34,906 bases of DNA, from assembly GCA_937897365.1 (NCBI GenBank), contig CALCOP010000155.1:1-34906 (forward strand). Direction: 5' to 3'. The stretch is from an uncultured euryarchaeote. Lineage in GTDB: Archaea; Thermoplasmatota; Poseidoniia; Poseidoniales; Poseidoniaceae. The position numbers were made by a program, and so were the translations under genes. Under the pieces are notes generated by a model, which was not told where the DNA came from, did no database searches, and saw nothing but the letters and a program-made list of their open reading frames with translations. Positions 22,619 through 29,260 of this stretch are shown here, piece by piece. How positions within the stretch are numbered: the stretch's first letter is position 1; each line of letters starts with the position of its first letter.

Positions 22619-23383
22619 TTGAGCAGTGTGGAAGATATTGATACCGCCCTAACCTTGCTTCAAAACAAGTTACGTCGCCGAATTCTCGAACGGTTAGTTC
22701 GAGAGCCGCATTACCCAATGCAACTTGCGGAATTACTCGATGTAAGTCAGCAAGCAATCGTCAAACACTTGAAGGAATTAGAACGCGGTAATTTCGTTAC
22801 GAAGATGAAAGTGGCAAGTGAGAAAGGAGGCCCACCGAGAACAATCTACAGCGTTCAACAATCGCTTTCACTGCGAATTGACCTGGGACCGGACCTCTTT
22901 CTTTGTGAACAAAGACAATTGCCTGCCGGAGGCCCAATGCGGCTCTCAAATCGATTACCGAATGCAACTGAAAATGTCGTTCAATCCGTCAGTGGAAGGA
23001 AGAAAATCTCAGTAGGTGAAGGCATGGCTCATATTCAACACTTGAACAGCATTCTTGAAGATATTGATTCACAGCGCGATGCTGTAATCGCTTTACATCA
23101 ACACATCCGCAATCGAATTTCTGCTGGAGTAGATTCTGACTTCGAACATTATGAGCAGCGAACTATGGTTCACAGCCTCATTGAAGCTCCTGAACGGAAA
23201 TTAGACCTCACAAATTTAAGACGCGAATTGCAAATCGGTCAATCCGAAATGGCAAACCTACTCGATGAAGTTCGAAACCGTCTTGAGCGGCAACTCTCTG
23301 ATCGTGCAGGTCAAATCATCGCTGCTCCAAACAACTCAAATCTGCGATTCTGGCTCGGCTCACTCCCTCAAAAGAAGAAGTGA
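22619..23383 (+). CDS. ArsR-like winged helix-turn-helix transcriptional regulator
   Basis: LLQNKLRRRILERLVREPHYPMQLAELLDVSQQAIVKHLKELERGNFVTKMKVASEKGGPPRTIYSV; TTG (22619) or GTG (22628) start. Confidence 0.85.
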   Translation: MSSVEDIDTALTLLQNKLRRRILERLVREPHYPMQLAELLDVSQQAIVKHLKELERGNFVTKMKVASEKGGPPRTIYSVQQSLSLRIDLGPDLFLCEQRQLPAGGPMRLSNRLPNATENVVQSVSGRKKISVGEGMAHIQHLNSILEDIDSQRDAVIALHQHIRNRISAGVDSDFEHYEQRTMVHSLIEAPERKLDLTNLRRELQIGQSEMANLLDEVRNRLERQLSDRAGQIIAAPNNSNLRFWLGSLPQKKK

Positions 23384-23410: not shown

Positions 23411-26400
23411 TCAGTCTTCAGCGCCGGCCAAGACCGACACGAGGGATGATTGCTCAGCCTTTCGATCCAAGACATCCTGGCGGCGTCCACGACCAACGAG
23501 GTACACAACACCGAACAGAGCGAATGTCAACAGAATTACTGCAAATGGCAGAGCTGTCTTACCAACAACCTCGCCAGCGACATCTATTATGCCACCAGTT
23601 GATTTCAGTTCATTCTCAACAGGTTTGACGTTATCACTTTCTTGAGTCTCCACGATTTCATTGGATGGGTCGACGACCACATAAACGCCGTGACTTCCCG
23701 CAGATACTGGATAGAGAAGAACCAATTCGATTTCTTTGTAATCTTCAGAATCATCTGGAGCAAGGAGTGCACCAATGACTTGACGCATGACAATGCTTTC
23801 ATCATCGCAACCGTTCTTCTTGATTTCGTTAATCGTATCAGTATCGGAAGCATCCGAGTATTCACACAACACAATTTCAATGTCGGTCGCATGGGTATTT
23901 CCATCATTCCGCAGAACAACACGAACTGGAATCGTTGTATCAACGTCTCCCGTATCATCAGAAACGCTCACTTCAGCGAGAACCAAGTTCGGAGCACGCA
24001 ATCGAAGTGTAACGATGAATTCATTCGTATCAAGGCTTTCAGCAGCCCACGATGGTGAATCATCATGGTCTCCGCCTTCGGCCATATTACCCATCTTGGA
24101 AACCACCTTCAATCCAATACTGCGTGTATCAAGTACTGCAGACGGCGCAATCTTAACGATTGCAACAACCGGGTAAGTCGTGTAAGGATCCATCATTGGC
24201 ATGAAATATCGTTCATCGGATTCAAGGTAGACACAGCGATCACTCAAGTCGGCAAAGGCTGTTGCGGGGTCGATGGCTGCATCTTCATCACCATTGACCG
24301 TATCAAGAGAAGCAACTATTTCACACGGTTCTTCCGTAGTCAAATCTGTTCCAATTTGTTTGACTAAGCGCCATTCAACAGACCATCCATCAAGTGCGCC
24401 CATTCCAGGTAACTCGTTCCAAATCAACGCTTCACCATCACGGTTAGCGGTGTGGTTGTTGAGAGTTGGCCAGTCCGGGACGTTACCGTTGTTCGTAATG
24501 TTCAACTCGAAACGCACAATACGCCCTGGCGCTGAAGTCTTGATTGCATTATCAACAGTTGAATCCATGCTGATTTGCATATCGTAGAATTCCTGAACAT
24601 AGACGGGCATGCTTTGCGTAAAGCGCAAGCGTGTGAGCCGTCCACTTGCATCTGGGTAGGATTCTTCTGAGAAGGTCTGGAAGACAACCATATAGACGCC
24701 AGCTTCGACTTGGTCCGGGATATTCATGGTGATATCGAAGATTTGGTCCGTATCACGAGATAATTCCTTGAGTGTTTCACGTGGAATGTCGATATCCCAA
24801 AGAACGTCAACACCAGCAGGGTCCGTAACTCGAGCCAAACGATAATCGAAACGATCAGGTCCGTTACCAAGGTTGGTTACTGTGGTCGACACAATGATCT
24901 GCTGACCTGGATTTACCGGGAGTACTTCTTGCCCATCGAGTGTCATCATATCGACATCGTCGATATCTGCGTCTGCAACCAATGAGTAAACATGGTTAAC
25001 ATTCGTCGACAAAATCTTAGATGCTGAAATTCGCGGGTATCCATCAAGATATGCCTTCAAGATAACTGCTGGGCCAAGGCCTGCCGATGCACCGGTTGGC
25101 GCACATACTTCGACGCCTACTTCGTAAGTGATGTATTCAGCACCTGGCGGGATTGTCCACGCTCGAGGTTCGCTGACATCCACAGAGTTGCCTCCGGGAG
25201 CATTCGAGAAGTCAAGATTCACGACCCAATTGTCAACACGCCACGCATCCATGGAAATGGTGTCTGGCTTCGCTTCCGGCGCACCGGGGGTGACGAAGAC
25301 TAAACTTCCAGAATCAAAGTTCTTGGTTACATCAATCGGATAAGTGACACATTCTCCTGGGTCAACATACTCGCTGGTATCGAAGATTTCCATAACGATG
25401 TTACCTGTCGAACGAATTGATACGAATACGCCGAGTTCAAGAACATCGTATGTGCCCTTTTCAATTGACTTAATCGGCTCACCTTCAGACCAACCTTTGA
25501 GATAAATCACGAATGCACCGGGATCCTCAGATGTAGGAACCAGCACTTCCAAATTCTTCGTAACCGACTGTCCAGGGTCCAGTTCAACACTCGTTGGGAA
25601 ATTAACAGCCCAATTGAACGGCAACAACCATTCTTGCTGTCCTTCCAAGGTGTATGGATCCCAGAAAATGAAGCGATCATTAACGTTACCAGTATTGGTA
25701 ATTGTAATGGAGAATATCGCAGTTTGACCTTGCTCGACATCGGCCATACTGTGCGATGTATCGAGGTTAATTCCGTGTACGACATCCATCAAAGTACGGG
25801 TCACCAAGTCTGATTGAATAGCGGGGTCTTTGTAGGATTTCGCCGTCACTGAAATATCTGCAATTTGGTCTGCATCTGCTTGATAGACAGACGGAGCACG
25901 CACTCGCATGTAGAAGCGAATATCCTCTCCTCCTTCAAGGAAAATAGCGGTGTCTGGCATGATTGTCGTATGGTTATCTGCGAAGAACAAGGTTGCCGTC
26001 CAGTTTTGTGGTACGCCTGAAATGTTGAGGCCAAACGTATCTGCAACGAGGTCTTTAGGACCCGGTGTCGAGTTGTTCATCGACATGTTGTAGATGGTTT
26101 GCTGTCCTGGTTCAATGACGTGATAGAATGTTTCACCATCTTGGAAATCGACATCGACTTGGCCTGTTAGAACGTGCGAATAACAAATTGTGAAGCGATT
26201 GTTATTGGCTTCTTCACTGCACTTGTTGGTGTCAGACCAAGCTATGTGGGCACCACTTCCCAAATCATTTGAGAATGCTGGAGGCATCCCAATACTCGGC
26301 TGACTTCCAGAATTCGGACCGAGTTTATTGCTCGCCCAAGAAGTAACTGCTACAGTTTCCCAAGGGTCTAATGCAGTAAGTCCAGGTCCGGTGAGGTCAG

Positions 26401-28501
26401 TCGAGTTCAAACGGGTGTAGAGAATCTCTTCATCTGCAGTAGCGTTTCCTGAATCGACCCAAGCGATGTGGACATTGTTTTGATCATCGGTGAGGAGAGC
26501 TGGGAATACAGAGTTGCCACCGTATGGGCGGTTGCCTGGAAGTCCGGAATTACCTTCTACATTCGAGATTGGAGTGTCTTGAATTTTCTTAATTGCATAG
26601 GTAGAGAGGCCTTGGTCTGCTCCATCCCATGCACCTGCTCCTTGCAATCGTAGCTTGGTGTAGAAGACTTCGTAATTCACGCCCTTTTCGAATCCATAGT
26701 TTCGACCATCCATCCAAGCAATGTGGGTGTTGCCTTGCATATCGACACCAATTGATGGGTGGAATGAATAAGCGTCATCGATGGTTACTCGAGTGTCGTT
26801 AACGACAACAAGATGGCCGTCTGCTCCTGCGCCAGTATCTTCAGCGTAAGAGCCGCCGACAATGGAGTGACCAGTTGCACCAGGAACCCATGATTGATCG
26901 TTGTTCATCTTTCCGTAGGGGTCAAGAATTGACATGTAAATTTCACGGGAATTGTTGGTCGAGATGTAGACCATTGCTTCGACAAGAAGAGCCATTGCGT
27001 TTGCACCGCCGCTTCCGGATGGGAATTCGTATGCTTGGCCACCAGCGTCGGAGCTGCGTAGAGTATTACCCGGACAGTTTCGAGTTGAGGTGGATACAAC
27101 GCTGTTTGGACATTGAACCAAGTCCATGAAGTGAGACTGAATGTTTCCTGCTCCACCGTAACCCTGTCCATAGAGGCCGACTGGAATGACACCAGCGGTA
27201 ATACAGTTGTCGTGAGCCTCTTCTATCGAAGTGAGATCATCTGCTTGCTGAGACGGGTCGCCATCTTTCGGACCTTCATCTGAAACTGGAATAACAATCT
27301 TCGTTGCGTTCGGGTTCCAGCGGTGGTCGTCTTGGGTTGGAGGGTTTCCTGGAACGTTACCATTGGAATCTTTCCATGAGAGACAAGCCCAGTTACTTCC
27401 AGGACCCCAGTCTTCGCCGGAGTATCCAGAATAGGTATTACCGTTGTAAACAGTACCTGGTAACTTGCGGATACCACCAGAATCGTCACCTGGGAATTGC
27501 CCAAGGGGTGTTGTTCGTGGGCCGGTGTTTTGGTTCTTACCAGCACAGTTACCAGAACTTGCAGCACTTGGGAGTGTGTTACCCAAACCGTAGATGGTTT
27601 CGTAAACAGTCATGTTTGCTGTTTCAAGCATTGGCTTAATTCCTTGGAAGTATCCACCTGATGCAAAGTTTCCACCATAAACGACAGTGCATATGTCCGC
27701 CCATTCAGAATACATCGAACCAGAGGTATCGACGACGAAATTCAATTCGACCTTTCCGCCACGAGTATCATCCCAAGCGATTTGAACGTAATCGTTCGCA
27801 TCTACGACGACATCGGGATGACCCTTGTGACCAATGATTGGTGTGAGGAGGGTATCGTCGAAGTTCGTAATGACGGAACCTGTGGCGATGTCTGGGACAA
27901 GCATGGTGTAATAGATTTGAGGCTGATTAAAGAAACGACCGAGTTCGTCATAGGAATCTTCCCACACAATGTGAACTCCACCCTGGCTGTCGATATCGAT
28001 CGCAGGCCAATCACGGTTTTGAGCGCGACTTGAAACGACATAATCGTCAATTGCAGAAAGTGTTCCGTCATCGGACGCCGAACCATCCATTGCCGCTGCC
28101 CACGGATTAAGTACAGTGTAGACAATTTTGTGTTGAGCAGACTTATCTGCCCAAACGATGTGGATTTTGTCGTTTTCATCGACAACCATGTCGGGATGCC
28201 AAATCTTGTGAAGTCCTGGATTCGTGATTTGTGTAGTATCAATCAATGTCTCTCCACGAGGTGAAAGCATGGAGTAGTAGAGGTGGAGGTTATTTCGAGC
28301 CCAAACCACGTGAACATTTCCTTCACTATCAGAGCCAACTGCGGTCTGCGTGTCGGCAGCGGTTCCACCGTCAACAATCTGAATCGCTTCAGTGATAACA
28401 ACGGTGTTTGCTGTGGCAGTTAGAGTTGCTAAAAACAACGTCGAGAGGACGGAAAGCAACATAATCGATACAAGGCTGACTGACTTAATTTTTTGACCCA
28501 T
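23411..28501 (-). CDS. Giant secreted/cell-surface protein (1696 aa): signal peptide, propeller-like repeats with inserted vWA domain, CARDB/NEW3-like beta domains, C-terminal TM anchor
   Basis: N-terminal VSLVSIMLLSVLSTLFLATLTATA; repeats HVVWARN.../HIVWADK.../HIVWEDS.../HIAWMDGR.../HIAWVDSG...; vWA MIDAS-like LNFVVDTSGSMYSEW; C-terminal FAVILLTFALFGVVYLVGRGRR. Confidence 0.85.
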   Translation of the reverse strand: MGQKIKSVSLVSIMLLSVLSTLFLATLTATANTVVITEAIQIVDGGTAADTQTAVGSDSEGNVHVVWARNNLHLYYSMLSPRGETLIDTTQITNPGLHKIWHPDMVVDENDKIHIVWADKSAQHKIVYTVLNPWAAAMDGSASDDGTLSAIDDYVVSSRAQNRDWPAIDIDSQGGVHIVWEDSYDELGRFFNQPQIYYTMLVPDIATGSVITNFDDTLLTPIIGHKGHPDVVVDANDYVQIAWDDTRGGKVELNFVVDTSGSMYSEWADICTVVYGGNFASGGYFQGIKPMLETANMTVYETIYGLGNTLPSAASSGNCAGKNQNTGPRTTPLGQFPGDDSGGIRKLPGTVYNGNTYSGYSGEDWGPGSNWACLSWKDSNGNVPGNPPTQDDHRWNPNATKIVIPVSDEGPKDGDPSQQADDLTSIEEAHDNCITAGVIPVGLYGQGYGGAGNIQSHFMDLVQCPNSVVSTSTRNCPGNTLRSSDAGGQAYEFPSGSGGANAMALLVEAMVYISTNNSREIYMSILDPYGKMNNDQSWVPGATGHSIVGGSYAEDTGAGADGHLVVVNDTRVTIDDAYSFHPSIGVDMQGNTHIAWMDGRNYGFEKGVNYEVFYTKLRLQGAGAWDGADQGLSTYAIKKIQDTPISNVEGNSGLPGNRPYGGNSVFPALLTDDQNNVHIAWVDSGNATADEEILYTRLNSTDLTGPGLTALDPWETVAVTSWASNKLGPNSGSQPSIGMPPAFSNDLGSGAHIAWSDTNKCSEEANNNRFTICYSHVLTGQVDVDFQDGETFYHVIEPGQQTIYNMSMNNSTPGPKDLVADTFGLNISGVPQNWTATLFFADNHTTIMPDTAIFLEGGEDIRFYMRVRAPSVYQADADQIADISVTAKSYKDPAIQSDLVTRTLMDVVHGINLDTSHSMADVEQGQTAIFSITITNTGNVNDRFIFWDPYTLEGQQEWLLPFNWAVNFPTSVELDPGQSVTKNLEVLVPTSEDPGAFVIYLKGWSEGEPIKSIEKGTYDVLELGVFVSIRSTGNIVMEIFDTSEYVDPGECVTYPIDVTKNFDSGSLVFVTPGAPEAKPDTISMDAWRVDNWVVNLDFSNAPGGNSVDVSEPRAWTIPPGAEYITYEVGVEVCAPTGASAGLGPAVILKAYLDGYPRISASKILSTNVNHVYSLVADADIDDVDMMTLDGQEVLPVNPGQQIIVSTTVTNLGNGPDRFDYRLARVTDPAGVDVLWDIDIPRETLKELSRDTDQIFDITMNIPDQVEAGVYMVVFQTFSEESYPDASGRLTRLRFTQSMPVYVQEFYDMQISMDSTVDNAIKTSAPGRIVRFELNITNNGNVPDWPTLNNHTANRDGEALIWNELPGMGALDGWSVEWRLVKQIGTDLTTEEPCEIVASLDTVNGDEDAAIDPATAFADLSDRCVYLESDERYFMPMMDPYTTYPVVAIVKIAPSAVLDTRSIGLKVVSKMGNMAEGGDHDDSPSWAAESLDTNEFIVTLRLRAPNLVLAEVSVSDDTGDVDTTIPVRVVLRNDGNTHATDIEIVLCEYSDASDTDTINEIKKNGCDDESIVMRQVIGALLAPDDSEDYKEIELVLLYPVSAGSHGVYVVVDPSNEIVETQESDNVKPVENELKSTGGIIDVAGEVVGKTALPFAVILLTFALFGVVYLVGRGRRQDVLDRKAEQSSLVSVLAGAED

Positions 28502-28612: not shown

Positions 28613-29260
28613 TTAGGCCCATTCAGAAGGGTCAAATCCTGATCCAAAAGACATCTTTTCATCGAATTCAATCTCGTGATGTGTGGACTGATCCGGTTCG
28701 CTGTTCGTGGAAGAAGGAGTGCTCTTGCCCTCTTGTTTCGCTTTCACCCAATCATCGACGGGTCCTGGCTTTCCGATGCCTGGCCCGTGTGTGAATTTAA
28801 TTTCATGAATGATGCCGAGTTTTGCTAACCACAGTTTTCGTAGGGTGTGCATAAATTCATTTTTCGTTAATCCATCAAACCAAACAGGAAGGCTGACGTT
28901 GAATGCTTGAAGGGGTCCAACTTTTTGTTCACCCTCGTGCCCCATGTGAATGCCCCAATCAACGCTTGTTCGAATGAGTTGAAGACGAACATCATGAATC
29001 CATTCCAGCCATGCTTCTTTGTCCTCTTTCATGTGAGTAGCCATTTCTTTCTGTTGACCCTCATCCACTCGAGTCATGCTCGAAACGGCGACAAGGTCGC
29101 GACCCTTTGGAATGACAACAGCAAACATGTGCCCTTGAGGTCCTTGGGGATATCGTATCAAGAGATGCATCTCTGCGCGAGGGTCTTTTTGTTCTTTAAC
29201 CACGAGTCTTTCCTGTTGAACCCATTGTCGGATTCTGTGCATCGCATCCCTCTCTGCCAT
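28613..29260 (-). CDS. Hypothetical protein, possibly DUF2299-like
   Basis: ORF of 215 aa; N-terminal VRQERLVVKEQKDPRAEMHLLIRYPQGPQGHMFAVVIPKGRDL-type pattern resembles archaeal DUF2299 from memory (not searched). Confidence 0.5.
   Translation of the reverse strand: MAERDAMHRIRQWVQQERLVVKEQKDPRAEMHLLIRYPQGPQGHMFAVVIPKGRDLVAVSSMTRVDEGQQKEMATHMKEDKEAWLEWIHDVRLQLIRTSVDWGIHMGHEGEQKVGPLQAFNVSLPVWFDGLTKNEFMHTLRKLWLAKLGIIHEIKFTHGPGIGKPGPVDDWVKAKQEGKSTPSSTNSEPDQSTHHEIEFDEKMSFGSGFDPSEWA

Follow-up and report, generated by a model that had tools for sequence, protein, structure and literature searches.

The question raised by this locus is whether a von Willebrand A (vWA) domain can sit within a single blade of one continuous beta-propeller and, if so, what such an arrangement might do on the surface of an archaeal cell. 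The window (the whole stretch of DNA analysed, 34,906 nucleotides) comes from a genome of the Poseidoniales (Marine Group II, MGII), family f1. MGII archaea are uncultured, and the candidates put forward so far for the way in which they make contact with particles or with other cells are flotillins, thrombospondins and archaella (PMC6461757, PMC6336850). The gene of interest is called as an ORF with a product of 1696 aa, laid out as follows:

23411..28501, minus strand: whole gene, with signal peptide, seven-bladed propeller split by a vWA domain, Ig-like domains, transmembrane (TM) segment and short tail; 58 of 60 close genomes contain a relative
28409..28501, minus strand: putative N-terminal signal peptide or hydrophobic segment, spanning roughly residues 1-31, with its hydropathy peak at 7-29
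27749..28408, minus strand: propeller part 1, residues 32-251, running from the first strand(s) through blades 1-3 to strands A and B of blade 4 (repeats; AlphaFold strands mostly at pLDDT 70-91)
26948..27748, minus strand: inserted domain, residues 252-518, assigned as vWA from motif, conservation and profile comparison
26162..26947, minus strand: propeller part 2, residues 519-780, with the second half of blade 4 (strands C and D) and blades 5-7 (held-out strand test; repeats at 586, 671 and 745; model strands)
23561..26161, minus strand: Ig-like stalk, residues 781-1647, with a choice-of-anchor T region, NEW3-like repeats (NTGN/NLGN/NNGN) and CARDB at 1504-1626 (Pfam and NCBIfam scans)
23495..23560, minus strand: C-terminal TM segment, about residues 1648-1669 (highest hydropathy of the protein)
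23414..23494, minus strand: short tail of about 27 residues, basic at first (GRGRRQDVLDRK...; from the sequence)

The propeller is built from a repeat with the consensus P.(I/V).VD..(G/N).(V/I)HI(V/A)W.D......(I/V).Y(T/S).L, seven copies of which start at residues 52, 102, 165, 228, 581, 666 and 734. Six of the motif stretches are uninterrupted (starting at 57, 107, 170, 586, 671 and 745) and the seventh, at 233, is split; the HxxW-type repeats here are 50-85 aa long. Repeat 4 stops after WDDTRGGKV (residue 251) and picks up again at EIYMSILDPY (residue 520), with an insert of 267 aa lying between its second and third strands. To the left of the insert lies VQIAWDDTRGGKV (residues 239-251, window 27787-27749). 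The insert itself begins at residue 252, has LNFVVDTSGSM (residues 253-263), which holds the DxSGS MIDAS motif, at its start, and ends with ALLVEAMVYISTNNS (residues 504-518) at window position 26948, followed on the right by REIYMSILDPYG (residues 519-530, window 26947-26912). This confirms the central claim of a preliminary description of the DNA, namely that a vWA-type insert interrupts one repeat of the propeller, and its estimate of the span (26950-27755, about 260 aa) was right to within a few codons. The C-terminal TM anchor that it predicted is likewise present, as the most hydrophobic stretch of the protein, starting at residue 1651.

Several lines of evidence bear on the continuity of the propeller across the insert. 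Using a 10-residue matrix derived from the third strands of the six other blades, with repeat 4 left out, EIYMSILDPY ranked seventh of all 10-mers in the protein, right behind the six training strands. A score of this height has a chance of 7.7e-5 per position in shuffled sequence; within the insert, no 10-mer reached it. A blade HMM trained without repeat 4 gave a median of 20.9 bits for the joined flanks, versus 15.8 bits when the right half was shuffled and 12.8 bits for the uninterrupted sequence; since the left half alone reached 19.4 bits, most of this score derives from the left half. In an AlphaFold model of residues 27-800, generated from an alignment of 42 close relatives (mean pLDDT 53, pTM 0.61), propeller strands were found on both sides of the insert, with blades 1-3 mostly at 70-91, the strand after the insert at 62-70, the later blades patchy and the insert at about 30. 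When analysed by Foldseek, the whole model aligned across the insert with single PDB propellers over 767-778 columns (TM-scores by target length of 0.62 for 6fhy, 0.56 for 4irt and 0.55 for 5mvh). Furthermore, 58 of 60 relatives align with the whole arrangement from end to end, with identity falling to about 50%.

The same repeat exists without the insert in other Thermoplasmatota, and no vWA was found in the insert-free relatives inspected there. Once the insert had been removed from the MGII profile, the profile aligned straight over the junction to one of these proteins (L142; profile positions 60-239, i-E 1e-11), and a control profile with its halves swapped gave no junction-spanning match. 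Insert-free propellers with a related repeat are also present within the Poseidoniales. It is very improbable that the vWA lies not in a blade but between two separate small repeat domains, a reading favoured by the large share of the left half in the blade HMM score and by a few members whose joined score does not exceed that of the left half alone, and opposed by the rank of the post-insert strand in the held-out test, by the count of seven repeats with an N-terminal strand available for closing the ring, by structural matches that run continuously across the insert, and by the insert-free relative that aligns over the junction where the swapped-order control does not. The vWA-type domain sits inside blade 4 of one continuous seven-bladed propeller. 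The expectations of the preliminary description were supported by the model, by the joined flanks and by the homologues lacking the insert, and the flanks did not fall into separate, non-continuous domains.

The identity of the insert as a vWA had to be argued on sequence grounds, because the region was modelled poorly in both AlphaFold jobs. In the second job, performed on the vWA region alone with 42 close sequences, alternating strands and helices appeared at low confidence (pLDDT 42), in a model for which no Foldseek match was significant. Direct searches of the insert against Pfam, NCBIfam and PDB sequences returned no usable match. The Pfam VWA family (PF00092) gave weak matches in 5 of 31 members (best E 0.048) and matched none of 21 MGII genomes in a search that finds 11 of 14 control genomes; with membership defined by the curated Pfam cut-off (23.8 bits for VWA), the MGII insert falls below it. 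A profile of the MGII insert, however, matches vWA domains in another Thermoplasmatota family (6e-12 for genome G291 and 4.5e-12 for G297, per genome). One of the proteins matched in this way, L133, itself passes the Pfam VWA cut-off at 25.3 bits, and comparison of the MGII insert alignment with the Thermoplasmatota vWA alignment by hhalign gave 99.8% (E 1.5e-29).

The MIDAS-like DxSGS motif noted in the preliminary description is present, and the MIDAS positions are close to invariant among the 62-63 aligned proteins: D258 (62/62), S260 (62/62), S262 (60/62), S or T at 369 (60/63) and D408 (63/63). Alignment to L131 and L132 would place S/T369 in the MIDAS T loop. The Cys content noted earlier amounts to six residues (271, 319, 373, 433, 464 and 476), which are 98-100% conserved, suggesting three predicted disulfides. 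The vWA domains of the Thermoplasmatota proteins L131-L134 belong to the same subfamily, sharing IP[IV]SDE and, in L131 and L132, WGPG[ST]xW; they differ from the MGII domain in lying outside any propeller, in having no DSGGIR loop and in lacking most of the six Cys. L131, L132 and L134 are very large surface proteins (open frame up to 3040 aa) that carry this vWA among Ig-like domains. Taken together, these comparisons support the view that the insert is a divergent vWA domain, which would have the corresponding three-dimensional fold; the vWA identity proposed earlier is thus upheld by the insert profile, the Pfam score of L133 and the hhalign result, but not by a confident fold in either AlphaFold job.

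In a class-wide sample the insert was found in 167 of 195 genomes. The insert-bearing genomes listed all belong to the Poseidoniales families f1 and f2, and none comes from the sister family f3; when 21 f3 genomes were searched with the whole head, only two weak, short matches were obtained, both outside the insert. Viral contigs and plasmids held no relatives. In both f1 and f2, genes for DUF2299, an acyltransferase and HIT occupy conserved positions upstream, and because of this synteny the gene looks like a vertically inherited core gene of the Poseidoniales. As a candidate adhesin, the protein is encoded across the order in a conserved gene neighbourhood, and its vWA goes unrecognised by Pfam. 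The DUF2299 gene (window 28613-29260, minus strand) is the immediate upstream neighbour on the same strand, separated by 111 bases, and stays close to the adhesin gene in f1 and f2; the two may be co-transcribed. An ArsR-like winged-helix regulator gene (window 22619-23383, plus strand) is convergent with the adhesin gene and was found in flanking DNA at 43 of the 47 named loci from close relatives.

In most comparisons, among them those with every paralogue compared, conservation within the protein is highest in the vWA. Its identity is 94.8% to L012 (79-86% for the other parts), 81% to L018 (63-78%) and 40-55% to the paralogues (11-36%), and in the distant orthologues L047 and L049 its conservation is level with that of the propeller.

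How does this architecture compare with known systems? About half of human integrin alpha chains carry a vWA within a propeller. The overall layout of such chains, a seven-bladed propeller with an inserted MIDAS vWA, then beta-sandwich domains, one TM and a short tail, is that of the MGII protein. The integrin alpha-I domain, however, is inserted between blades 2 and 3 (PMC3192720), whereas the MGII insert separates strands B and C of blade 4. A Pfam scan found no FG-GAP match at E<=1 in the MGII protein, which also has no DxDxDG-like calcium loop motif. Membership of the integrin alpha family is rejected on these three counts, and the MGII protein is an analogue in layout only. As regards a beta-subunit partner with a beta-I domain, the PF00092 search brought up no recognisable vWA in the MGII genomes. 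Since reports of alpha-I begin with the urochordates (PMC4237329), the likeness points to convergence rather than descent, and indicates that the insertion of a MIDAS vWA into a propeller, known from chordate integrins, evolved a second time.

The PilC/PilY1 type IV pilus tip adhesins also combine a vWA and a beta-propeller in one surface protein, but in these adhesins the vWA precedes the propeller in the chain (PMC8179133) instead of lying inside it. An assignment to this group was rejected, as no PilC propeller family was matched in Pfam and NCBIfam scans. PilB of Streptococcus sanguinis and RrgA resemble the MGII protein in presenting a MIDAS vWA, with additions (arms) around the MIDAS, on a carrier module, which in their case is a pilin or pilus subunit (PMC8179133) and here a propeller. 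The RIVW-type repeats of archaeal surface proteins (PMC2447325) are likewise tandem surface repeats, and their name motif resembles HIVW; they are 42 aa long, versus 50-85 aa here. The choice-of-anchor T family (NF041740) is matched by a marginal pass (70.3 bits, cut-off 70), the best matching stretch being residues 843-992 of the stalk and not the propeller/vWA head. A search of the openly available literature found no description of this protein and no report of a vWA inside a prokaryotic propeller blade, the latter not being proof of absence.

On balance, we lean towards the protein being a secreted, membrane-anchored surface adhesin or receptor of the Poseidoniales that presents its MIDAS vWA from the propeller. 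The signal peptide would direct secretion, the C-terminal TM would anchor the protein in the membrane, and the Ig-like stalk would hold the propeller head off it; because these three elements occur together, an outward-facing MIDAS module is the simplest reading. The B-C loops of propellers share a face with the inter-blade loops, usually the ligand-binding face, and the integrin alpha-I domain emerges there too, so the vWA, carried by the B-C loop in blade 4, would be expected to project from this face. The putative MIDAS (D258-x-S260-x-S262, S/T369, D408) would then face the environment, where its divalent cation could coordinate an acidic group of a protein or polysaccharide ligand, carried perhaps by particles, phytoplankton detritus or neighbouring cells. 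The vWA fold in three dimensions, the binding of metal, the disulfides and the adhesive role are what we infer. Of the metal-dependent adhesion module on a propeller platform envisaged in the preliminary description, the near-invariant MIDAS, the platform and the TM have held up, and adhesion is still a matter of interpretation. Against an adhesin stand the many vWA proteins of prokaryotes that do not act as adhesins and a microscopy study in which coastal MGII cells were mostly free-living (PMC6864105). Moreover, since the PilB pilin binds fibronectin and fibrinogen in vitro without needing its MIDAS metal (PMC8179133), an intact MIDAS is no proof of metal-dependent adhesion.

The main rival, possible though unlikely, is a structural, S-layer-like protein of the cell envelope, in which the vWA would make metal-dependent protein-protein contacts inside the coat. 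The protein is large and single-pass with many Ig-like domains, its gene is a syntenic core gene almost throughout the order, it has a weak, sub-threshold match (E 0.05) to a putative S-layer family, and the title of a paper cited in PMC2447325 reports propellers in the surface-layer proteins of archaea. It has, however, only 14 N-glycosylation sequons in 1696 aa, and the extra, more diverged paralogues with vWA inserts fit the diversification of a receptor better than a lattice. We regard it as rather improbable that the vWA assembles or regulates a surface enzyme or uptake complex, for instance in peptide or polysaccharide capture, with a catalytic or carbohydrate-binding propeller: the best Foldseek propeller matches are indeed sialidases, glycoside hydrolases and propeller lectins, but these are matches at the level of fold, with 5-14% identity, no Asp-box was found in the protein, and no enzyme family was recognised in Pfam and NCBIfam scans.

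A more specific version of the adhesin or receptor reading, and a distinctly speculative one, is a convergent integrin-alpha-like archaeal receptor, in which ligand binding at the MIDAS would be relayed via the alpha-7 end of the vWA into the propeller, the Ig-like legs and the short cytoplasmic tail. If true, this would be a regulated particle- or cell-contact sensor in the most abundant archaea of the surface ocean.

It is at the alpha-7 end that paralogues carry further inserted domains, so that the same vWA has gone on receiving nested inserts. In ten f2 paralogues (L054-L062 and L067), a second insert of 150-152 or 260-268 residues lies inside the vWA, between the GG..(F/Y)P segment and the last vWA helix (L054 2384-3166 and L056 2950-3405, with equivalents in L055-L062 and L067). 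Neither part of this nested insert matched any family at a meaningful E-value; it may resemble MAM/cleaved-adhesin jelly rolls. The long form is apparently the short form with about 110 residues inserted within it, i.e. a third insert; if so, the nesting of domains reaches depths of three and four.

Two further proteins were seen alongside these. A diverged f1 paralogue, L135 (G092:C1, 1437-aa ORF), combines a strongly conserved vWA with a diverged propeller and has aspartate-rich DxDxDG-type repeats ahead of its C-terminal TM. L064 (1069-5619, plus strand), in the same genome, was set aside as an insert-free relative, being a more distant many-repeat propeller with a weak match only; it is a propeller-type surface protein without the insert, and has many HISY repeats, a TM and a C-terminal SEC-C-like cysteine motif.
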